Below, in pieces: positions 1,659 to 25,232 of a stretch of DNA of 34,598 bases (position 1 is the stretch's first letter; the number at the start of each line of letters is the position of its first letter). The notes below the pieces were generated by a model. The model ran no database searches. It saw nothing but the letters and a program-made list of their open reading frames with translations, and was not told the DNA's origin. Location: positions 1 to 34,598 of the forward strand of contig JAJCXO010000243.1 of NCBI GenBank assembly GCA_029263395.1, given 5' to 3'. The stretch comes from Acidobacteriota bacterium (GTDB lineage Bacteria; Acidobacteriota; Thermoanaerobaculia; Multivoradales; J023). A program made the translations under genes and the position numbers.

Positions 1659-1776
1659 CGGCAGCACCGCTCGGCAGAAGTAGCCGTGGCCGGCATCCGC
1701 CCAGATGATTTGGGCTGTCCAACAGTCCTGTTTTCTACCGTGGGCCCTACCCCACTTCAGCCTGCTGTGAACGCGT

Positions 1777-1827
1777 GTGAACCGAATGGTTCACCCGAAT
1801 CTCGAAGAACTTGAACCGATCGGTGCA
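1777..1827 (+). promoter_or_regulatory. two matched dyads, candidate upstream activator sites
   Basis: Site 1 (1777-1794) is GTGAACC-GAAT-GGTTCAC, a perfect 7-bp inverted repeat with a 4-bp spacer. Site 2 (1812-1827) is TGAACC-GATC-GGTGCA, the same layout with one mismatch. Their centres are 34 bp apart. They lie about 154 and 120 bp upstream of the start point predicted from the sigma-54 element at 1914-1929. That is the usual place for enhancer sites of a sigma-54 activator. The cognate regulator is not in this window. Confidence 0.6.
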
Positions 1828-1913
1828 CCTGAACTTAAAACTCGATCGACCCTCACCGCACTAACCGACGTGCGACTCGCCCTCGGCCGTGAATCCGACC
1901 CGCTGCCCAAGGC

Positions 1914-1929
1914 TGGCACGGCTCTTGCG
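1914..1929 (+). promoter_or_regulatory. sigma-54 (RpoN) -24/-12 promoter
   Basis: The sequence TGGCACG-GCTC-TTGC matches the RpoN consensus TGGCACG-N4-TTGC at every fixed base. The GG and GC doublets have the required spacing (12 bp from the second G to the C). The predicted start point is near 1940, giving a leader of about 74 nt before the ATG at 2014. Because RpoN promoters need an ATP-driven activator, the gene downstream is expected to respond to a specific signal. Confidence 0.75.
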
Positions 1930-2013
1930 ATTTCTTGGTGACAGGTCGTCACCCTAGAACAGCCATAAACTTAGCGCGCCCCGAAGACATCCCCACAACT
2001 AAGGAGGTTCGAG

Positions 2014-3522
2014 ATGCCCCACCCAGCCAGTCTGATGACGAGTTCCAAGGCCCTGACGAAAACATCAAGCAGCCAGTTCACGATCGTCGTCCTGCTACTT
2101 TCCTTGATCGCAACCCCATCTTGGGCCGAGCCGGCCGAATCGCCCTGCCAGGGCTCGCTCGACTTCCTGCAGGAGGCCTATGCCAAGGACAAGGCGACCC
2201 AGAACGCATTCAAGCTCACCTTCGAACATCTGAAGCCCTTGCCCAAGGGCTATTACTACAACGAATCGCAAGAGAACCCGTGGAAGACAGGCAACTCGGG
2301 CGGTGAAGATCTCATGCACGCCGTCGTAGAGTTCTACCAGCAGGTCTGCACCCTGGTGCCCGAGATCATCGGCACCAACGACAACGCCCTCGATTCGATT
2401 CAATACTTCGCCTGGCTCTACTACCACAACAACCCGGGACGCATGATGGTGGAAGGAATCGATCCCGCAGATTCCAGCAAGCCGCTCCCCACCGTTCAGG
2501 AGTTCTTGATCCGGTTCAACAACGAATACAAAACCTACATGGACAGCAGTTCCTCCCAGTTTGCCGTGCAGGAATGGGTCGACGACCCGCGTCTCGAGAT
2601 CGACGACTACATCCTCACCGAGGCCTCCGACTATCCCAGCTGGAATGCGTTTTTCGCCCGCGACATCAAGATCTCGACCCGCCCCGTCACCATGCCAGAC
2701 CGCGACTACGTGGTCGTCTCCCCCACCGACTGCATCATGAACCCCTTGGTGCAGGTGCTCGAGTTGGACACCGGGGACGTACACCGCAGGCTGCTCGAAA
2801 ACCCCCTGCAGCATGACACGGTGCTCGATGTCAAAGGCATCCCGATTTCGGTCTCGAGCCTTCTGGCCAACGCCCCGGAGGACGTCAAGAGGAGATTTGA
2901 TGGCGGGACCGGCCTGTCCTGCGTCTTGATGCCCAACACCTATCACCACTTCCACAGTCCGGTGGACGGCATCATCAGGTATGCCGAGATCGTCGAGGCC
3001 GGCGTTGAAAACAAGGATGCCTGGGGCACCTTCGGCTACAGCGATTGGCCCAACTGGGTGCCACTCGACGGCAACGTGGGCCGCCCAGGCACTGACTTCA
3101 GTCAGTTCGAGGGCTTCCAACGCGGCGTCGTCATCATCGAGGTCAGCTACGAGAACCTGCCGAACAAGAAGCCGGAAATGCTCAAGGGACTCGTGGCCTC
3201 CATCCCGGTGGGGCTCGACACGGTCGGCTCAGTGGTCTTTGCCGACGGCGTCGAGGAGGGGGCGCGGGTGGTGAAAGGCATCACCGAGTTCGGCAATTTC
3301 TTCTTCGGCGGCTCGTTGAACATCCTGCTCTTCTCTCCGATCGAGTGCGAAGGCCATCCGGCCGAATGCCACGACGTACAGATGCTCACTCCGGCGGTAC
3401 AGACCCGCATGGGCAACCAGATCGGCATCCTGAACACCCCCTACCCTGCTCCCTCCACGCCGTGGACTCCCGACTCGGGCCGCACGAGGGACCGCAAGGT
3501 CTTGCGGCATCTGCACCAGTGA
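2014..3522 (+). CDS. secreted phosphatidylserine decarboxylase-family protein
   Basis: A 502-aa protein of the PS decarboxylase family, pyruvoyl enzymes that self-cleave at a serine to make their cofactor. Visible landmarks are SPTDC with Asp239 (usual SPADG), YHHFHSPVDG at 310-319, and FFFGGSLNILLF with the cleavage serine at Ser434 (usual GGST). The start ATG follows a strong AAGGAGG at 2000-2006. Residues 1-38 form a signal peptide (basic n-region, hydrophobic VVLLLSLIATPSWA, then E), so the enzyme is exported rather than the usual inner-membrane cytoplasmic-facing form. A region of about 200 residues precedes the catalytic part. The family also includes enzymes that decarboxylate free amino acids such as tryptophan, so phosphatidylserine is not assured as substrate. 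The Thr after GGS is Leu, which may affect processing. The gene is preceded by a sigma-54 promoter. Confidence 0.8.
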   Translation: MPHPASLMTSSKALTKTSSSQFTIVVLLLSLIATPSWAEPAESPCQGSLDFLQEAYAKDKATQNAFKLTFEHLKPLPKGYYYNESQENPWKTGNSGGEDLMHAVVEFYQQVCTLVPEIIGTNDNALDSIQYFAWLYYHNNPGRMMVEGIDPADSSKPLPTVQEFLIRFNNEYKTYMDSSSSQFAVQEWVDDPRLEIDDYILTEASDYPSWNAFFARDIKISTRPVTMPDRDYVVVSPTDCIMNPLVQVLELDTGDVHRRLLENPLQHDTVLDVKGIPISVSSLLANAPEDVKRRFDGGTGLSCVLMPNTYHHFHSPVDGIIRYAEIVEAGVENKDAWGTFGYSDWPNWVPLDGNVGRPGTDFSQFEGFQRGVVIIEVSYENLPNKKPEMLKGLVASIPVGLDTVGSVVFADGVEEGARVVKGITEFGNFFFGGSLNILLFSPIECEGHPAECHDVQMLTPAVQTRMGNQIGILNTPYPAPSTPWTPDSGRTRDRKVLRHLHQ

Positions 3523-3558
3523 GGGCGACGACGGCCTCCAACTAAGGGGAGTACGGTC

Positions 3559-3780
3559 GTGACCCCGCTACAACAACCGACGATCGAGCCATTGGATCCG
3601 ACCGAGGAGCCCGATCATCCGTTGATCAACCACCGTGTCCAAGATGAGGCGCCCGATCACCAGCGGATCCGGCGCCTCCACCGCAACAAGCCGCAGGATC
3701 AACCGACGATCGGGCGTCGGATCCGTTCCACGACGGTGGATCAAGCGATGATCCAGCAAATGTCGGTCGACATTTCGTGA
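3559..3780 (+). CDS. possible small repeat-containing protein (73 aa)
   Basis: A GTG at 3559 sits 7 bp after a good AAGGGGAG ribosome site (3544-3551) just downstream of the decarboxylase gene, so translation is plausible. The product is polar and basic, with no hydrophobic core. It carries a recurring D-[HQ]-x-x-I pattern (DHPLI, DHQRI, DQPTI, DQAMI) that mirrors the GATC-rich DNA repeats beneath it. The pattern may be a by-product of the DNA repeat rather than selected protein. No family recognised. Confidence 0.3.
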   Translation: MTPLQQPTIEPLDPTEEPDHPLINHRVQDEAPDHQRIRRLHRNKPQDQPTIGRRIRSTTVDQAMIQQMSVDIS

Positions 3781-3945
3781 ATCAGCCGATGATCCGGCCA
3801 ATGTCGGTCGACATTTCGCGAATCAAGCGATGATCCGGCCAATGTCGGTCGACATCTCGCGAATCAAGCGATGATCCAGCGTCTTGTCGTCGACCAAATT
3901 GCCGATCATCGGCTGTTGGAACGGCGATTTTCCTCCGGGTGATCC
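3581..3945. other. GATC-dense repeat tract
   Basis: About sixteen GATC sites fall in roughly 365 bp, where one or two are expected by chance. Most sit in variants of a degenerate unit resembling GATCAAGCGATGATCC, and a palindromic variant (CCGATCATCGG) lies at 3902-3912. The tract fills the convergent gap between the decarboxylase gene and meaB. GATC clusters are known at replication origins and in methylation-controlled switches, but no dnaA, parB or dam gene is visible here. Confidence 0.6.
3739..3881 (+). repeat. 41-bp tandem repeat, 3.5 copies
   Basis: Units at 3739-3779, 3780-3820 and 3821-3861 and a half unit at 3862-3881 keep an exact 41-bp period with a few substitutions. Each full unit contains the dyad ATGTCG-GT-CGACAT (8+8 bp in the first copy) and the GATGATCC motif. 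There are no variable spacers, so this is not a CRISPR array. Confidence 0.85.
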
Positions 3946-13375: not shown

Positions 13376-13894
13376 TCGCGTATCTCCCTGCTGCCATGCC
13401 ATTGAATTGAGAGGCTGCCTTCTGGCGATGAGATACGGATGGGTCGCGCCGTGATGTTCCAAGCTCTGCTGCCCCATCGTTGAGACCAAAACGTTGATAC
13501 CCCATCCCCCGCCATCGAAGGCCCTATCTAAATGGGCGGGAACAGGCGCCGAAAATGATCATCCAATTGTCTTGAGAGGGCTAGATGTAGCGGCTAGAGG
13601 CTTGCAATCCCACAATCTGCGGTATAGCCTGCTGGCGAATTGTGATGACACTGAATCGGTGAGATCTGACTTGTTGAGATCCTGAAATGAAGGCCTGCCC
13701 CTTACCTCCAAGCTTTGCAGTCATGCGAATGCCCTTGGCCCTGCTCTAAGGGCCGCCTCCAGTTCCCCTCGACAACCGCGTGCCCCCAACCTCCGGGACA
13801 CCATCGAAGCCCTGAACCAGCAGCTGCTTCGCTCGAGACACAAGATTCAGATATTCCGCGCTCCATCATCGGAGCTTGATTGAGGGCAACAGCC
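13376..13894. other. metH upstream region, no gene seen
   Basis: No supported coding frame. I looked for SAM-I, SAH and cobalamin riboswitch cores before metH and saw none. GAGGG at 13883-13887 serves as ribosome site for the ATG at 13895. Confidence 0.4.
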
Positions 13895-16159
13895 ATGGCC
13901 AAATCGACTCAAGAGATCCTAACCAGCCTACTGAAGGACCGTATCCTGATCATGGATGGTGCCATGGGCACGATGATCCAAGGCTACAAACTCACCGAAG
14001 ATGACTATCGAGGCCGTCGATTCCAGGATCACCCGCAAGACCTGAAAGGCAACAACGATCTATTGTCGCTCACCCGCCCGGATGTGATCGAGGAGATTCA
14101 CCGTGAGTTCCTGGCGGCAGGTGCAGACTTGATCGAAACCAATACGTTCAACGCCCAGGCGATTTCGCAGGCTGACTATGCCACCGGTTCTCTGGTCTAC
14201 GAGTTGAACGTCGAATCGGCAAAAATTGCGCGACAGGCTGCCGCAGAAGCAACCTCTCTCAACCCGAACAAGCCGCGTTTTGTTCTGGGCTCGATCGGCC
14301 CGATGAATCGCACCCTCTCCCTGTCACCGGACGTCAACAACCCGGCCTTCAGAGCCGTGACCTTCGATGAGGTCAAGGATGCCTACAAGGAACAGGCGCG
14401 CGGTTTGGTGGATGGCGGCGTGGATGCCCTACTGCCGGAGACGACCTTCGATACCCTCAATTTGAAGGCTGCCATCGTTGCGATCGAAGAGCTTTTCGCT
14501 GAGCGAGGCCAGAGACTACCGGTGATGTTGTCACTGACCATCACGGACAAGAGTGGCCGCACGCTGTCGGGTCAAACTCTTGACGCCGCCTGGATTTCGA
14601 TCGCTCACGCTCGGCCGATCTCGGTGGGGCTCAACTGTGCCCTTGGGGCCAATGAGATGCGCCCCTACGTTGAAGAGTTGTCGCAGATCGCGCCCGTGTT
14701 CGTCAGCTGTTATCCCAATGCCGGATTGCCGAATGCCTTTGGCGAATACGACGAATTGCCGCAAGACACCGCTCGTATCTTGGACGAGTTTGCAGCCGAA
14801 GGTTGGTTGAATATTGCTGGCGGTTGTTGCGGTACGCGACCGGAGCATGTGCAGGCGATAGCTGAAGCCATGGCCAAGCGGTCTCCCCGTCAAGTTCCCG
14901 CGCCACGCCCATACCCTCGGTACAGTGGCCTAGAGCCCCTTGTGCTGCGTCCCGAGTCCAACTTCATCATGATTGGCGAACGCACCAACGTGACCGGCTC
15001 CAAACGTTTCGCGCGGTTGATCAAACGGGAAAAGTACGAGACTGCCCTCGAGGTGGCTCTCGACCAAGTCCGAGGCGGCGCCAACATCCTCGACGTCAAC
15101 ATGGACGAAGGGCTGCTGGATTCCGAAGAGGTGATGGCCAAATTCCTGAAGCTCATTGCTTCAGAACCTGAGATCTCTCGCCTACCGATCATGGTGGACA
15201 GTTCAAAGTTTTCGGTCATCGAAAATGGGCTCAAGTGGATCCAGGGCAAAGCGATTGCCAACTCGATCAGCCTCAAAGAAGGCGAGGACGCGTTTCGGGA
15301 CAAGGCTCGGATCCTTCAGCGTTATGGCGCTGGCGTTGTCGTCATGGCTTTTGATGAATCTGGTCAGGCAGTAGATGCCGACGAGAAAGTCGCGATTTGT
15401 GAGCGTGCTTATCGCATTCTCACTCAGGAGATCGGATTTGCCCCCGAAGAGATCATCTTCGATCCCAATATTCTGGCGATTGCAACTGGCATGGAAGAGC
15501 ACAACTCCTATGCCAAGGCTTTCTTCGAAGCGACCCGGCGCATCAAGGAGGTCTGCCCTGGCGCCCAAGTCTCGGGCGGAGTTTCGAATCTCTCCTTCTC
15601 GTTCCGGGGCAACAATACCGTGCGAGAGGCCATGAACGCTGCCTTCCTCTACCATGCGATCAACGCAGGGATGGACATGGGGATCGTCAATGCTGGGCAG
15701 CTCGAGGTTTATGCGGAGATTCCCAAGGATCTGCTCGAGCTGACCGAGGACGTACTCTTCGATCGGCGGGCCGATGCAACCGAACGGCTAGTCGACTTTG
15801 CTGCGACGGTCACGAGTAAAAGCAAGAACCGCCAAGAAGATCTAGCCTGGCGGGACGCATCCGTCGAATCCCGACTCTCTCATGCTCTGATCAAAGGCAT
15901 CGTCGATCACATTGAGAGTGATGTCGAAGAAGCACGCCTCAAGTATTCGCGTCCGATCCGGATTATCGAGGGGCCGCTGATGGACGGCATGAACATCGTC
16001 GGCGATCTTTTCGGTTCCGGCAAAATGTTTCTGCCTCAAGTCGTCAAGAGCGCACGCGTCATGAAACGTGCGGTGGCTTACCTCGAACCCTTCATGGAGG
16101 ACGAAAAGGAGGGGCTTGAAGACTCTGGCCGTCCGAAGGTGTTACTCGCAACTGTCTAG
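13895..16159 (+). CDS. metH: methionine synthase MetH, N-terminal part, ends at an internal amber codon
   Basis: The first 754 residues of cobalamin-dependent methionine synthase, which moves a methyl group from methyltetrahydrofolate to homocysteine. Homocysteine domain: DGAMGTMIQ near the start, then GLNCALG and [10 protein letters not shown], whose Cys residues bind zinc. Folate domain: [16 protein letters not shown] and [16 protein letters not shown]12 cap region: ending at KVLLATV. It stops at TAG 16157-16159 where the family has Lys in VKGDVHDIGKN. The same frame continues directly as the second half, so this is one gene with a nonsense codon. The ATG at 13895 is preferred over TTG 13880 because GAGGG precedes it by about 8 bp. 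Without B12 binding this fragment should not complete the reaction. Confidence 0.9.
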
Positions 16160-16165
16160 GGTGAC

Positions 16166-17578
16166 GTGCCCGATATCGGCAAGAACATCGTTGGGGTGGT
16201 TCTAGGCTGCAACAACTACGAGATCGTTGACCTTGGAGTGATGGTACCCGCGGCGAAAATTCTGCAAACTGCCGTCGAGCAACGGGTGGATGCTATCGGT
16301 CTATCTGGCCTCATTACTCCGTCGCTCGAAGAGATGGAACACGTGGCCAAAGAAATGGAGCGATTGAAGCTAGACCTACCCCTACTGATCGGTGGAGCGA
16401 CAACCTCACGCCAACACACAGCGATCAAAATTGCTCCGCATTACAGCCAAACCACGGTCCATGTGTTGGATGCGTCGCGGGCGGTCGGCGTTGTGGCCAA
16501 GCTGCTGGACTCGGATCAAAAATCAGACTTTGACACCGAGAACCGAGAGTTGCAGGCAGAACTGAGAGAGGTCTACGGACGCCGAACTCGCAAGCCACTG
16601 GTGTCCTATGAGGAGGCTCGTTCCAATCGCCTGAAGATCGATTGGGATGCTGAGACTTTACCTCGTCCTTCTATCCTCGGCCGCCAGGTGGATACAGATC
16701 AGTCGCTGGAAGAGCTAGTGCCCTACATCGATTGGACCTTCTTCTTTACTGCCTGGGAGCTCAAGGGCCGTTTTCCGAAGGTGCTAGATCATCCGCGGTA
16801 CGGGCAGGCTGCGCGGGAGCTCTACGCCAATGCTCAGGCCCTGCTGGAACGCATCGTCAAGGATGGGCTGCTCAGCGCCAAGGCGGCTTGGGGCTTGTGG
16901 CCGGCCCATTCAGAGGACGACGATATTGTGCTGTTCAACGACGAAGCTCGGCAGGACGAGCTCGTCCGGTTCCCAATGCTCAGGCAACAGGAAGCGAAAC
17001 CAGACGATTCGATGCCGCACCGCTCCCTGGCCGACTTTGTGGCTCCGGCCGAGTCAGGGCAGACCGACTTCGTCGGTGCCTTTGCGGTCAACGCCGGCAT
17101 TGGGGTTGATGCGATGGTAGCGCGTTATGAAGCTGACCATGATGACTACAATGCCATCATGACCAAAGCCTTGGCGGATCGCCTAGCTGAGGCTTATGCC
17201 GAGCTGCTACACGAAAGAGTCCGTCGTATCTGGGGATTTGGTCATGACGAGCGGCTCACCAAAGACGATTTGGTTGCAGAACGGTATCGCGGAATCCGAC
17301 CTGCCTTCGGCTATCCAGCATGTCCTGATCACACCCTCAGAGGTGTTCAATGGGACCTGCTCCAGGCTGAAACCCAAGCCGGGCTGCGCTTGACCGAAAC
17401 CTACGCCGCAGTGCCAACTGCTGCCGCCAGCGGGATTTACCTGGCACACCCCCAGGCTCGCTACTTCGCCGTTGGGCGCTTGGGGCGGGATCAAGTTGTA
17501 TCCTACGCCGAGCGCACTGGCATGAGCCTCCAAGAGGCCGAACGCTGGCTCAAGCCCAACTTGGGGTATGAGCCTTAG
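16166..17578 (+). CDS. metH: methionine synthase MetH, C-terminal part (B12-binding and reactivation domains)
   Basis: In the same frame as the N-terminal part, two codons after the amber stop. A GTG at 16166 offers a restart but has no clear ribosome site. It opens with VPDIGKNIVGVVLGCNNYEI, where normal MetH has VHDIGKN: the His that ligates cobalt is Pro (CCC). The rest of the B12 domain is intact (LSGLITPSLEEM, LLIGGATTSRQHTA). The AdoMet-dependent reactivation domain follows, with RGIRPAFGYPACPDHT near the end (RPAPGYPA in E. coli MetH). Joined, the two parts give a normal MetH of about 1,230 residues. Preservation of everything else points to a very recent lesion or a sequence error. 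It ends in TAG. Confidence 0.85.
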   Translation: MPDIGKNIVGVVLGCNNYEIVDLGVMVPAAKILQTAVEQRVDAIGLSGLITPSLEEMEHVAKEMERLKLDLPLLIGGATTSRQHTAIKIAPHYSQTTVHVLDASRAVGVVAKLLDSDQKSDFDTENRELQAELREVYGRRTRKPLVSYEEARSNRLKIDWDAETLPRPSILGRQVDTDQSLEELVPYIDWTFFFTAWELKGRFPKVLDHPRYGQAARELYANAQALLERIVKDGLLSAKAAWGLWPAHSEDDDIVLFNDEARQDELVRFPMLRQQEAKPDDSMPHRSLADFVAPAESGQTDFVGAFAVNAGIGVDAMVARYEADHDDYNAIMTKALADRLAEAYAELLHERVRRIWGFGHDERLTKDDLVAERYRGIRPAFGYPACPDHTLRGVQWDLLQAETQAGLRLTETYAAVPTAAASGIYLAHPQARYFAVGRLGRDQVVSYAERTGMSLQEAERWLKPNLGYEP

Positions 17579-18879: not shown

Positions 18880-19905
18880 ATGAGTTCAAGCGAGTCTTCT
18901 TACGAAGCGATCCCTTTCAACGGCTTTACAGCTGAGGAAGTGGCGGCGATTTGTACAGCCGGCAAACTTCGACAGTGCGAAGCCGGTGATGTGCTCTTCC
19001 GTCGCGATGAGTATGGCGACAGCATGTTCGTCTTGGAGGAAGGTGAGGTTGAGTTGAACTTCGCCAACGAGGTCTCCAGCAAATCGCTGTGCTCGAATGC
19101 AGTGTTCGGCGAGCTCGCATTTGTTACTGGCCGGCATCTCAGAACAGCAACTGCCCGCGCCAAAACACACTGCACTTTGCGAGTGATCGACGAAACGGCG
19201 TTCGAGCGGCTGTACCAATCTCAACCTCGTCTATTGGTTCGCCTTCTTCGCCATACGTGCGGTTATCTTCTGGCCTCTGAGCATCGGTTGATCGGCAGTT
19301 TGAGGCGAAAGAATCGTGAGCTCCAAAGCACCTTGGACTACCTTAGAAGAACTCGCGAGGAGGTTGACTACCAGGAACTGCTGGCAAACACGGACGAGCT
19401 GACTGGCCTCTACAATCGTCGGTGCCTCAATCAACAGCTGGACAAGTTCATCGATCGAGCTCACGCAACCGGCACTGGTTTGGCTCTCATCCTGGTAGAT
19501 GTAGACAAGTTCAAAGACGTCAACGATACGTTTGGGCACGCTGCCGGTGACGAGGTGTTGCAGGGACTCGCTGCGATCATTACCGAATGTGTCCGGACCA
19601 GCGATCTTCCGTGTCGTTTCGGTGGTGACGAGTTCGCAATTGTCCTAACAGAGATAGAGCCCGATCGCGCAGTCGCTCGGGCCGAGAGCATCCGTCGAAA
19701 TGCGCAGGCGGCACGCCTCGTACCGGACCACGTCAAGATCGAAGTCTGTACCAGTATTGGAGGAGCTATGTTACGCCCGAGGGAGAATGCCTCCGAGTTG
19801 TTCGAGCGCGCTGATCAAGAGCTCTACCGGTCTAAGAAACTGGGGCGTAACCGGGTTTGCTGGCAAGGGCAGGAGATCCAACACCTGTCGAAGACTGGCC
19901 TATGA
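18880..19905 (+). CDS. cyclic-nucleotide-binding-domain diguanylate cyclase
   Basis: A 341-aa cytoplasmic protein. Residues of about 12-125 form a cNMP-binding (Crp-like) beta barrel (GDVLFRRDEYGDSMFVLEEG, FGELAFVTGRHLRTATARA). A helical linker at about 130-165 leads to a GGDEF domain (170-330) that makes c-di-GMP from GTP. The active-site motif GGDEF is at 248-252. RTSD five residues before it forms a product-inhibition I-site, so the enzyme should be active and feedback-controlled. In the barrel the phosphate-binding Arg pattern is R-T-A-T-A after GRHL, compatible with nucleotide binding but not proof of it. The FHA kinase gene starts 13 bp downstream, so the two are likely one operon. Confidence 0.93.
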   Translation: MSSSESSYEAIPFNGFTAEEVAAICTAGKLRQCEAGDVLFRRDEYGDSMFVLEEGEVELNFANEVSSKSLCSNAVFGELAFVTGRHLRTATARAKTHCTLRVIDETAFERLYQSQPRLLVRLLRHTCGYLLASEHRLIGSLRRKNRELQSTLDYLRRTREEVDYQELLANTDELTGLYNRRCLNQQLDKFIDRAHATGTGLALILVDVDKFKDVNDTFGHAAGDEVLQGLAAIITECVRTSDLPCRFGGDEFAIVLTEIEPDRAVARAESIRRNAQAARLVPDHVKIEVCTSIGGAMLRPRENASELFERADQELYRSKKLGRNRVCWQGQEIQHLSKTGL

Positions 19906-19918
19906 GTACATCCTCGAG

Positions 19919-21676
19919 ATGAAATTCATCGCATACGAGAAGTCACGCGAGTGTTCTCGCGTCTCCTGGGCTGGCAAGCAGTTGATCATCGGCCGCCGCG
20001 AAGATGCCGACATCCAGCTCAACGAGCCCACCATGTCGGGGATTCATGCAAAAATTTTTGCAGGCACAGACGGTATCAGGATCCGAGACCTGAACAGTTT
20101 GAATGGTACACAAGTCAACGGAACGCGGATTATCGAGTCACTCCTGCGAGATGGCGACCGGGTAAAAATTGGCCGTGCGACAATCTTGGTGTCAGGGCCT
20201 GCCGCTGCCGGATTCGGAGACGATTCGACTCAGGAGGTCGCGGCGCCGCACGATGTGAGCTCGGTTGTAAACATCGCTCAGGACAATTCTCTGCAGAGTG
20301 CACAAACCCTCACCATCAACCTCGACGAGCTTCGGCAGGACCCTGGCCTGCAGCTCGCTGAAGATCATTACATCTTACTTCTTCGTAATCTCTTCGAAGC
20401 ACTGCAACAAGCCTCGGATCGAGATCAAGTCCTGCTCAAGGTTCGCGATGTCTTGAATCGCGCTTTTCAGCGCGCTCGCATCTTTATTCTTCGCCAGACG
20501 GCTGACGGTTGGCAGGATGCCGATGCGATCTCGACTCCCCTACCGAGTTTGACCTTTGCGGCCGAGGCCGCCCACAGCAACAGCGCAATTCTTGCCAGCT
20601 CATTGTCGGAAGACCAGCGTTTCTCGAGTTCTGTAAGTGCACGAATCTCAGGTATCGAAACTGCTATCGCTGCGCCAGTTAGTTGTGAAGGCGCGCCCGT
20701 CGCCGTGTTGTACGTTGATCGTCTAGGCTTACCGCCATTCACTCGCAGAGACCTCAACATTCTAGGCATCGCCGCCAATCACATCTCCGCTGTGCTCGAA
20801 AACGTCTCGCGGTTTGACGCCCTCAGGAGAACGAACAGAGAGCTTCTAGAGGCGCGAGAAGGGCTTGCCGAACTCAATCGGAACCTCGAGCAGCTGGTGC
20901 AAGATCGAACTGCCGAGATTCGGCGCCAAGCCGAACAGATCGGTAACTTGGCAGAAGCCAAAGACGAGCTGCTCGGAATTGCAGCACATGACATCAGAGG
21001 CCCCCTTACCGTCATTCAAGGTACAAGCGAACTTCTCAGATTGCGGTCCGGCAACATCGACCCTGAAACGCTGACTCGAAGTCTCGATCTGATGTATGAC
21101 GCCTGCCGCGGTCTAGGCCAACTCCTCAGCGAGCTGCTCGATGCCAAAGCCATTGAAACCGGACGGATCACCCTTCGAAAGATGCGTACCAAGGTCAAAA
21201 GTCTCTTGGAGGAAGCGCTGCCAGTAGCCCGCCTCGCAGCGGAAGACAAGCGAATATCTCTTGATGTCGAGGTTCCGGAGACACTAGAACTCGAAGCAGA
21301 CCCGCAACGCCTTGGACAGGCCCTTACAAATCTGGTGCTGAACGCTGTCAAATTTTCTGACAAGGGAACTCGCATTGTGCTGCGAGGTCTTGTCCACTCC
21401 GAAACTGAGACACGTATCGAGGTAGAAGACCAGGGGATCGGAATACCAGAAGAAGAACTGGTCGGTATCTTCGGTACTTTCGAGCAAGGCAAAGCGGGAC
21501 AGGAGGCCGGCGGTAGTGGCCTTGGCTTGATGATTGCTCGTCGCCTAGTCGAACTCCACGGAGGCTCGCTGGCAGTGGAAAGTCAGGTCGGAGTCGGCTC
21601 TCGGTTCATTCTGACGCTACCAGCGGTGTCTCCGGTCCAAACAGTTGCTCGAAGCCCGAGTTTGCGGAAAGACTAA
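19919..21676 (+). CDS. FHA-GAF hybrid sensor histidine kinase
   Basis: About 585 aa from the ATG at 19919 (the frame is open upstream inside the GGDEF gene). An N-terminal FHA domain (1-95; GRREDADIQL, SGIHAKI, LNSLNGTQVNG) should bind a phosphothreonine partner. A GAF domain follows (about 140-300), then a coiled coil. The HisKA H-box is GIAAHDIRGPL with His357. The ATPase domain has N-box NLVLNAVKFS, G1 DQGIGIPEEE and G2 GSGLGLMIARRLVELHGG. It has no membrane segment and no receiver domain, and no response regulator gene lies nearby. FHA on a histidine kinase suggests cross-talk with Ser/Thr kinase signalling. It lies 13 bp after the GGDEF gene and converges, 6 bp apart, with the next one. 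Confidence 0.92.
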   Translation: MKFIAYEKSRECSRVSWAGKQLIIGRREDADIQLNEPTMSGIHAKIFAGTDGIRIRDLNSLNGTQVNGTRIIESLLRDGDRVKIGRATILVSGPAAAGFGDDSTQEVAAPHDVSSVVNIAQDNSLQSAQTLTINLDELRQDPGLQLAEDHYILLLRNLFEALQQASDRDQVLLKVRDVLNRAFQRARIFILRQTADGWQDADAISTPLPSLTFAAEAAHSNSAILASSLSEDQRFSSSVSARISGIETAIAAPVSCEGAPVAVLYVDRLGLPPFTRRDLNILGIAANHISAVLENVSRFDALRRTNRELLEAREGLAELNRNLEQLVQDRTAEIRRQAEQIGNLAEAKDELLGIAAHDIRGPLTVIQGTSELLRLRSGNIDPETLTRSLDLMYDACRGLGQLLSELLDAKAIETGRITLRKMRTKVKSLLEEALPVARLAAEDKRISLDVEVPETLELEADPQRLGQALTNLVLNAVKFSDKGTRIVLRGLVHSETETRIEVEDQGIGIPEEELVGIFGTFEQGKAGQEAGGSGLGLMIARRLVELHGGSLAVESQVGVGSRFILTLPAVSPVQTVARSPSLRKD

Positions 21677-23289: not shown

Positions 23290-23832
23290 ATGAATATAAC
23301 AAAGCGAGTCTCAAAACCACGAGTGCTGATCAGCGAGCAAGATCTTCAACGTAGAGTCACAGAGCTGGCGAAGGAGATCGACAGCGACTATGCCGACACT
23401 ACCCGGTTGGTCGCGATCGGTGTCTTGAAGGGCTCAGTGTTCTTCATGGTCGATCTGTTGAAGCAAGTGCATGTACCTGTGCAGGTCGATTTCTTCCAGA
23501 CCTCTTCGTATGGTGAAGGGACTTCTCCAGGAGAGGTCCGCATCCGCAAAGACATCGACCTTTCGATACGCGGTGCTGATGTCCTTTTGATCGAAGATAT
23601 CGTAGATACCGGTTTCACTCTCCGCACGATACTTGATCTGCTTCGGTTTAGGGGCGCCCGCAGCGTGAAGCTCTGCGCCTTGCTCGACAAGGTTAGCCGC
23701 CGTCAAGTCGAAGTGCCCATCGACTATCGCGGATTCGAGATAGATGACCACTTCGTTATCGGCTACGGTCTCGATCTAGCCGACTACTACAGGAATTTGC
23801 CCTACATCGGAATCTACGAAGGTGATACATGA
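23290..23832 (+). CDS. hpt: hypoxanthine phosphoribosyltransferase
   Basis: A 180-aa purine-salvage enzyme that joins hypoxanthine or guanine to PRPP, giving IMP or GMP. The PRPP-binding loop is LLIEDIVDTGFTL (about residues 99-111). The flexible-loop region SSYGEGTSPGEVRI and the purine-recognition end DHFVIGYGLDLADYYRNLPYI, here about residues 154-174, are all typical. Length is normal. The last bases ATGA overlap the start of ridA, so the pair is translationally coupled. Confidence 0.95.
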   Translation: MNITKRVSKPRVLISEQDLQRRVTELAKEIDSDYADTTRLVAIGVLKGSVFFMVDLLKQVHVPVQVDFFQTSSYGEGTSPGEVRIRKDIDLSIRGADVLLIEDIVDTGFTLRTILDLLRFRGARSVKLCALLDKVSRRQVEVPIDYRGFEIDDHFVIGYGLDLADYYRNLPYIGIYEGDT

Positions 23833-24209
23833 AGACCTGCCATACCAACGATGCTCCTGAAGCCATCGGTCCCTACTCACAAGCAGTCGTCACCGGCCGC
23901 TGGGTCTACACCTCCGGTCAAATTGCACTCGATCCTGCAACGGGTGAGCTGGTCGAGGGAGGATTCGAAGCGCAGGCCCATCGCGTGATGGATAATCTAA
24001 GGGCCGTGCTGGCAAGTACAGGCTGTACCTTTCAGAACGTCATCAAGGCGAACATCTTCGTAGCAGATCTCGCTAATTTCCCGGTGCTGAACAAGATTTA
24101 CGGAGATGCCTTGGGAGATCATCGGCCCGCACGCTCTACAGTCGAAGTCGCAGCGTTGCCCAAGGGAGCTCTCGTCGAGATCGATCTGGTAGCGCGTATC
24201 GCGGAGTAA
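23829..24209 (+). CDS. ridA: RidA-family enamine/imine deaminase
   Basis: A 126-aa protein of the YjgF/YER057c/UK114 family that hydrolyses reactive enamines and imines (such as 2-aminoacrylate) released by PLP enzymes. Family marks are AIGPYSQAVVTG at the N-terminus, YTSGQIALDPATGELV, and the active-site Arg in RPARSTVEVAALPKGALVEID near the C-terminus. The Glu next to the terminal ARIAE is typical too. It overlaps hpt by 4 bp. Its 3' end runs into a short tandem repeat. Confidence 0.95.
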   Translation: MKTCHTNDAPEAIGPYSQAVVTGRWVYTSGQIALDPATGELVEGGFEAQAHRVMDNLRAVLASTGCTFQNVIKANIFVADLANFPVLNKIYGDALGDHRPARSTVEVAALPKGALVEIDLVARIAE

Positions 24210-24264
24210 CCGCGTATCGTGCCGAGTAACTGCGTGTCGCGTGTAACCGCGTATCGTCGGGTAC
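24193..24264 (+). repeat. four degenerate 17-20-bp repeats over the ridA 3' end
   Basis: Units of the form CGCGTATCG-(n)-GTAAC start at 24193, 24211, 24231 and 24248. The first contains the ridA stop codon (TAA at 24207-24209). The array fills the whole gap to the convergent gene. Confidence 0.65.
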
Positions 24265-24266
24265 AG

Positions 24267-25232
24267 TCAGCCGAACAAGTACTCGTTGAGGAGTACTTCT
24301 AGCAGTGAGGATTCCTCGTCGACGGCGGCTTCAGCGATCAGGCTGACACTTTCAGCATTAAGCCAACTCAACACTCCGAGGTTGCCATCAAAAGCCAACC
24401 CTCTGAGGTCATGGGTAGTGTTTTCGGCCTGTCGGGCAGCCTGAAGTAGACCCTGTCCGACGCTCACTGAACGCTCGAGGCGAAGCCAAAGCTCACCCGC
24501 TAGCGCAAGGTCGCTGGCGAAGCGCCGGTTGCGAAGTTCTCGTGGTGAGCGACCGCTGGCCGGCCGCGGCGTGAACGCTGCAAGGCCATGCTTGACGGCG
24601 TATTGACTGAATTTTCTCTCGGACGGTTGGGCGCCGTGAAACAATGCGTCGAATACCCCCTCACCACCCAACTCGGCGAGCACTCTCCGGTCCGAGGCCT
24701 CGAGTTCAACCGTCAGCGGTTGCACGCATGCAGCCCCTGCGTCGGCAAGGCTTTTGCAGCCTCGTTCCCACAGATCGACCGAGTCGGTTAGTCCAGGTAT
24801 GAGTGGCCAAACCGCCAGCGAGCTAGTAGGTAAAAAAGCCAATTCCTCGAGATTGCCAGAAAGCAATGGGCGCAGCAGATCATAGACCACAACGTCGGCG
24901 GGAGCGCTGAGAGTTTCGCCAGGCTGCAGCTGAACCAAGACTGAGGTTCCCCCCTCCAATTCTGACAACCAGTCATCACGTGTTGAGTCTTCATCTCCAT
25001 CAAGCGCGATCGGCGGCAAATAGAACAATCCGTCGAGCGTGGAGGTATCGCGGCTCGGAAAACCGGTCCTGGTGTCGTGTTGACCATCGAGGTTTCGCAA
25101 CTTGCTCGCCCCAAGATCTGTCCACGAGCCTCCCGCTTGGAGCCACTTTCGTGGAGCATGGGAAATCCAGAACCGGGCTGGCTCTGGCAAGTACTGAGAC
25201 AATCCCGTTCGCCGTTGACCGCGGGGGTTCAC
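24267..25232 (-). CDS. protein of unknown function, translationally coupled to ribE
   Basis: A 321-aa soluble protein starting with GTG at 25232, whose GTGA overlaps the ribE stop. No cofactor or metal motif is evident. The middle (LLSGNLEELAFLPTSSLAVW, PLIPGLTDSVDLWERGCKSL, DAGAACVQPLTVEL) alternates strands and helices in a way that resembles a TIM-barrel half with a conserved Cys pair region. The C-terminus is helical. It has no resemblance to ribBA or ribH, the usual next genes in a riboflavin operon. Position at the end of ftsY-ribD-ribE suggests a role linked to flavin synthesis or use, but that is inference. I do not recognise the family. Confidence 0.7.
   Translation of the reverse strand: MNPRGQRRTGLSQYLPEPARFWISHAPRKWLQAGGSWTDLGASKLRNLDGQHDTRTGFPSRDTSTLDGLFYLPPIALDGDEDSTRDDWLSELEGGTSVLVQLQPGETLSAPADVVVYDLLRPLLSGNLEELAFLPTSSLAVWPLIPGLTDSVDLWERGCKSLADAGAACVQPLTVELEASDRRVLAELGGEGVFDALFHGAQPSERKFSQYAVKHGLAAFTPRPASGRSPRELRNRRFASDLALAGELWLRLERSVSVGQGLLQAARQAENTTHDLRGLAFDGNLGVLSWLNAESVSLIAEAAVDEESSLLEVLLNEYLFG

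Follow-up and report, generated by a model that had tools for sequence, protein, structure and literature searches.

The window, the whole 34,598-nucleotide stretch of DNA analyzed here, corresponds to contig C243 of an Acidobacteriota genome (G000; 10.68 Mb in 291 contigs). An ATG at position 2014 opens a 502-residue PS-decarboxylase-like (PSD-like) protein, and the DNA ahead of it holds two palindromic dyads and a sigma-54 core element, followed by a leader with a ribosome-binding site. A pattern search of the window bore out the layout described in an earlier sequence-only reading: TGGCACG-N4-TTGC is exact at 1914–1928, and two dyads of the TGAACC-N4-GGTTCA type begin at 1778 and 1812, 34 bp apart start to start, with centers at about −154 and −120 relative to the predicted transcript start near 1940. 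The features of the locus are the following.

1776–1829, minus strand: enhancer block of 54 bp, 81% identical to a block on contig C260, inverted
1777–1794, no strand assigned: enhancer dyad 1, GTGAACC-GAAT-GGTTCAC, an 18-bp palindrome in which TGAACC-GAAT-GGTTCA occupies 1778–1793; its start (1778) lies 136 bp ahead of the −24 element
1812–1827, no strand assigned: enhancer dyad 2, TGAACC-GATC-GGTGCA, one mismatch; its start lies 102 bp ahead of the −24 element, and a distance of 101–103 bp is common to all paired sites
1914–1928, plus strand: sigma-54 −24/−12 core, TGGCACG-N4-TTGC, weak alone and strong with the dyads
1940, plus strand: predicted transcript start, placed some 12 nt past the −12 GC
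1975–2013, plus strand: leader common to the sister genome's gene, with DNA homology from 1975
2001–2007, plus strand: ribosome-binding site AAGGAGG, recognized by eye
2014–3522, plus strand: putative exported PSD-like protein of 502 residues, PF02666, with D239, H311/H314, and S434 kept

The core (TGGCACGGCTCTTGC) is the sole exact match in the window and contains the −24 GG and −12 GC with ten bases between them; at two or fewer mismatches, the window holds 16 core matches versus 11.84 expected. The two dyads are 82% identical to each other over 22 nt. A third, relaxed dyad at 2738–2753 falls within the PSD-like coding sequence and is one base off. Its counterpart in the sister genome G001 (C210:6585–6600) is exact, and the sequence at 2738–2753 is probably a chance match or a codon coincidence. 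Elsewhere in the window, a nitroreductase-like frame at 163–1242 (TTG start) may be frameshifted, with a signal-like start at 104 in another frame. A B12-dependent methionine synthase occupies two adjoining frames (13880–16159 and 16166–17578), split in the B12-binding part, and at 18880–21676 a cyclic-nucleotide-binding GGDEF protein overlaps an FHA-GAF-histidine kinase frame.

The product of the downstream gene matches the PSD domain PF02666 (6e-19) and has a signal-like N-terminus, judged by eye, as well as about 200 residues ahead of the domain, in keeping with its earlier description as a secreted PS-decarboxylase-like protein. Like PSD and PsiD-like decarboxylases (PF02666; 6l06, 7cnw, 9jer), it has retained the D, H, and S residues: in alignments with solved structures, D239 and the YHxxH stretch match PSD chains, and S434 falls on the GGS end of one PsiD-like chain. 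D239, H311, H314, and S434, which we take to be the catalytic D/H/S positions of PSD, are conserved in 33 or more of the 34 proteins aligned (the window's own and 33 relatives). The protein differs from PSD in its signal-like N-terminus, in the stretch ahead of the domain, and in its equivalog scores, which miss the cut-offs widely (best 64.2 bits versus 371; TIGR00163 49.5 versus 111.75). By eye, a signal-like first segment is also seen in many PSD-like relatives. A 41-bp tandem repeat of 3.4 copies (3740–3877) separates the PSD-like gene from a gene that we take to be MeaB-like.

In 200 first-order Markov resamplings of the window, counted on both strands, TGAACC-N4-GGTKCA occurred on average 0.005 times, the exact sigma-54 element 0.025 times, and the joint layout 0 times. 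Genome-wide searches used reversed patterns as controls. The exact core is not enriched in G000 (12 versus 9 for the control), nor are single dyads with at most one mismatch (18 counts versus 21), and both results count against the model; G001 shows no excess of dyads either (40 counts versus 56). The element called 'perfect' in the sequence-only reading is exact, but 12 occurrences against 9 make it weak evidence by itself. The dyad pair, searched in 98 genomes with an 18-bp gap and at most three mismatches over 24 fixed bases, is found three times in G000, once in G001, and not at all in the 96 other relatives, versus 0 for the control across the 98 genomes. One dyad followed 70–100 bp on by a sigma-54 core returns the same four places only, versus 2 control matches in total across the 98 genomes. 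It is the arrangement, not the single elements, that exceeds chance. In the proposed genome scan for the dyad and the −24/−12 element, the paired layout stands out (three places, control 0) and neither element alone does. As guides to further members of the regulon, we rejected both the core alone, on its 12 occurrences versus 9, and single dyads: none of the seven other dyad loci of G000 has a core (two or fewer mismatches) 40–200 bp away in either orientation.

All four paired sites carry a sigma-54 core on the expected strand and one dyad starting 101–103 bp before it; the dyad-start-to-core distances are 136/102 bp in the window, 135/101 on C260, 101/67 on C42, and 103/69 in G001. On C42, the stop codon of an enhancer-binding protein (EBP) gene marks the start of the first dyad, and downstream of the pair lie TGGCATACCTTTTGC and a 176-residue gene. 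The arrangement in G001 is the same, with the pair beginning at the stop codon of an FHA-EBP. On C260, the dyad pair, TGGCACGCCTCTTGC, and a 112-residue reading frame come after the decayed remains of an EBP gene of the same kind (82% identity to the C42 EBP across residues 383–410). An EBP gene or remnant thus precedes three of the four paired sites, and the AAA+ activator that the sequence-only reading had proposed to look for near other dyad copies is found intact at the C42 site and decayed at C260. C260 and C42 overlap at their ends by 28 identical nucleotides, and the C260 end resembles the start of the G001 EBP gene; the two sites are therefore likely neighbors, probably in the order decayed EBP, site, 112-residue gene, intact EBP, site, 176-residue gene. 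In G006, a genome of another genus in the same family, an EBP orthologue (75% identical) has dyads downstream of it, 101 and 47 bp ahead of TGGCACATCGATTGC; these dyads are 54 bp apart, not 34, which counts against the model. The recurrence of the layout ahead of other genes, together with a full-length rpoN in G000, supports the earlier proposal of an RpoN promoter with enhancer sites, and our favored interpretation of 1777–1928 is such a promoter with its enhancer sites paired.

The EBP encoded on C42 combines an FHA domain (PF00498, 2.6e-12), a sigma-54-interaction domain (PF00158, 3.1e-70), and a Fis-type HTH (PF02954, 7.8e-5). Its GAFTGA loop is intact, and both this loop and the recognition-helix region LHPNSFRRL are identical in all four aligned EBP relatives. 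A scan of EBP 3′ ends was given 50 loci of G000 and relatives, of which 41 ends were readable. Two dyads and a sigma-54 core follow three of these 41 ends, and all three belong to EBPs with LHPNSFRRL. The fourth EBP with this helix (G006, C50) lacks any dyad (two or fewer mismatches) within 400 bp downstream of its stop codon, and among the other 37 ends two have a single two-mismatch dyad with no core; both observations count against the model. Several of the 37 show a core without dyads. The dyad regulator is probably the FHA-AAA+-Fis activator encoded on C42, to judge from this linkage. A search of the window's own contig found no EBP gene or remnant, which counts against the model; the activator should therefore act there in trans. 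Next to the EBP-linked small gene, and convergent with it, lies a kinase gene of 1358–1377 residues across copies; a domain scan of the G000 copy (1373 residues) identifies TPR repeats along with two kinase domains. Four modules in three genomes, including the sister genome and one of another genus, have these genes in the order kinase, small gene, EBP, which makes the kinase the EBP's neighbor but one.

An alternative accepts the sigma-54 parts as real and assigns the dyads to one or more other EBPs, the C42 protein merely adjoining its target. G000 offers ample candidates, with 59 strong matches to the C42 EBP, and the G006 protein with the same helix has no dyad close by. However, the linkage of EBP and dyads recurs in three genomes and two genera, as well as in the decayed C260 copy; the next G000 EBP by score is 50% identical; and LHPNSFRRL is absent from the other G000 EBP ends that were readable in the scan. 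We regard assignment of the dyads to another EBP as improbable.

Other EBP genes are also followed by sigma-54 elements. At L085 (G000 C221, EBP 23431–24381), an exact core lies about 100 bp past the stop codon, ahead of a 215-residue gene with a signal-like start; since L085 shows the same order, EBP followed by promoter may be a common arrangement in G000. In relatives, the EBPs at L123, L126, L129, and L139, whose helix regions differ, have sigma-54-like cores downstream, and the frames after these cores encode 122–397 residues, three with a signal-like start.

G006 contains 19 dyads with at most one mismatch, that is 38 counts on two strands versus 52 for the control. The surroundings of all 19 were inspected for a core with two or fewer mismatches and with GG and GC kept. 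Four have such a core 40–200 bp downstream, where about 1.1 would be expected from a background of 29 in 161,004 positions (0.029 per 160-bp strand window, times 19 dyads in two orientations); the 15 without a core count against the model. The four comprise the EBP-linked dyad and three others, downstream of which lie a LamG-domain protein, an 87-residue frame that matches nothing in Pfam, and a metallophosphoesterase. The starts of the LamG and 87-residue frames were chosen by hand downstream of the predicted transcript start; the metallophosphoesterase is a 657-residue frame that has a signal-like N-terminus when read from its likely start past the core. The core-bearing dyads are exactly those with CGATCG, a grouping made post hoc.

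The EBP-linked small proteins align weakly (25–49% identity to the first) and share a C-terminal DPxIxL in all four aligned members, a DP reminiscent of D116-P117 in SO1698. The structural model of the small protein has a mean pLDDT of 61; compared with SO1698 (DP-EP), this weak model gives a Foldseek E of 5.4e-4 with probability 1.00 and a VIA-align Z of 7.6 (rmsd 3.4, 110 aligned). PixA inclusion-body proteins rank after SO1698 in the fold lists, and neither fold claim is firm, since Z is below 8. In sequence, Pfam DP-EP (PF08985) matches two of the four members, below its cut-off (best E 0.06, 14.2 bits versus 25). A CylK profile match of the family (E 0.0054) was set aside as probably compositional. 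Neither the 176-residue nor the 112-residue protein has a match in Pfam. The former has relatives in two of 98 genomes, its own and the sister, the G006 members having been identified by position and not by search with this protein; the latter was found only in its own genome among 59 searched. A comparison of the C260 product with the G006 C39 product showed no similarity.

The sister PSD-like protein in G001 is 91% identical, and DNA homology to its gene extends from 1975 to about 3512–3523, with neither flank common in the stretches compared; the upstream neighbors in G001 find their best match on G000 contig C51 (75–68% identity). Dyads with two or fewer mismatches precede none of 38 related PSD-like loci scanned (35 distinct, three in duplicate), which counts against the model. 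The scan took in the 500 bp preceding each match and its first 60 bp (for L079, 280 bases altogether), and several matches start inside the protein, so part of the true upstream region may fall outside the scan. L031, L067, and L083, which match without the N-terminus, and the distant L032–L041 and L043–L048 were left out. Sigma-54-like sites with two or fewer mismatches occur at three of the 38 loci (two distinct), 287–389 bp before the match. The proposed check for dyads upstream of orthologous genes thus went against conservation of the promoter, and a promoter conserved along with the gene is rejected. Because the same element precedes unrelated genes and has an activator beside it, we read its absence from the related loci as lineage-specific acquisition, not as a sign of a false promoter.

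The block at 1776–1829 is 81% identical to the C260 block over 54 bp when inverted and 71% identical over 52 bp in promoter orientation; the dyads being palindromic, orientation is told by the 18-bp spacer alone. As no related locus in the scan has dyads and sister homology starts only at 1975, the window promoter looks like a recent capture with its join near 1975. The simplest account would be that an enhancer block and core of the regulon came to lie before the PSD-like gene in the G000 lineage, although two genomes are too few to decide which lineage moved.

The same join could also mark a relic, or a chance juxtaposition after rearrangement, with an unrecognized housekeeping promoter driving the PSD-like gene. 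Absence of the element from the related loci scanned fits such an origin, as does the end of sister-gene homology at 1975, downstream of the core, and the C260 copy shows that this EBP family does leave relics. We nonetheless find a relic unlikely, as the window's core, both dyads, their spacing, the leader, and the ribosome-binding site are all intact. That the dyads are operators of another regulator class beside a coincidental sigma-54 element is very unlikely: perfect 16–18-bp palindromes are also typical of TetR-type operators, and the exact element is no commoner than its control, but four of four paired sites have the core on the expected strand with a dyad 101–103 bp before it, and three of the four come after an EBP gene or remnant.

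We consider it likely that 1777–1928 is a paired-enhancer sigma-54 promoter that makes transcription of the PSD-like gene depend on the C42 FHA-EBP, as part of a kinase-linked regulon of three promoters. In the circuit that we propose from the DNA and its comparisons, the double-kinase Ser/Thr kinase beside the EBP would phosphorylate either the EBP itself or a partner, and the phosphothreonine would be sensed by the EBP's FHA domain. EBP dimers would bind both dyads, assemble an AAA+ ring, and loop the DNA, and the GAFTGA loop, with ATP hydrolysis, would open the RNA polymerase-sigma-54 complex at 1914–1928. The predicted G000 regulon would comprise the PSD-like gene, the 112-residue orphan gene of C260, and the 176-residue DP-EP-like gene of C42. 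The PSD-like gene would then stay silent until the kinase signal and come on together with the two small genes.

A broader model, which we put forward tentatively and hold to be possible rather than probable, is that the module of double kinase, FHA activator, and DP-EP-like gene governs a small group of exported or surface-type genes that changes quickly, and gains targets when a ready-made paired enhancer and core land before a gene. In G000, a C260-related block, apparently inverted, would have landed before the PSD-like gene, and in the other genus a LamG-domain gene, a metallophosphoesterase, and a small orphan gene would have been taken on.

FHA-domain EBPs and their sigma-54 regulon were reportedly described in Myxococcus xanthus by Jelsbak, Givskov, and Kaiser in 2005, and to that extent the circuit is of a kind already known. 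The resemblance to that reported system lies in an FHA domain joined to a sigma-54 activator, an expected link to Ser/Thr kinases, and sigma-54 target genes; the organism here belongs to another phylum. To our knowledge, the site, its 34-bp paired layout, the double-kinase and DP-EP-like neighbors, and the PSD-like target are not known from M. xanthus. Among better-known activators, NtrC invites comparison. NtrC enhancers read TGCACC(A/T)4TGGTGCA and the usual enhancer distance is 80–150 bp (PMC4987338); the window dyad centered at −120 lies within this range, and the one at −154 just beyond it. The likeness extends to paired near-palindromes with TG-x-ACC half-sites, a Fis-type HTH, and a position upstream of a sigma-54 core, and the differences are a half-site of TGAACC instead of TGCACC and four instead of five bases between the arms. 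An assignment of the window dyads to NtrC was rejected on half-site and spacing; the C42 activator also differs in having an FHA domain and in scoring far below the ntrC model cut-offs.

Literature searches on sigma-54 or on FHA activators in Acidobacteriota returned no report of such a circuit, and as far as the literature was searched, the site, the paired layout, the association with a kinase and a DP-EP-like gene, and the PSD-like target are new. A comparative study has argued that sigma-54 governs the bacterial exterior (PMC3162934), which fits an exported PSD-like target. The analysis turns an orphan promoter into a defined candidate circuit of a kinase, an FHA activator, a 34-bp paired enhancer, and three target genes. 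If true, it would connect an exported enzyme resembling lipid decarboxylases with sigma-54 transcription under kinase control in uncultured Acidobacteriota. The locus may also show visibly how a gene comes under an enhancer that already exists, the point of joining being located to a few tens of bases.
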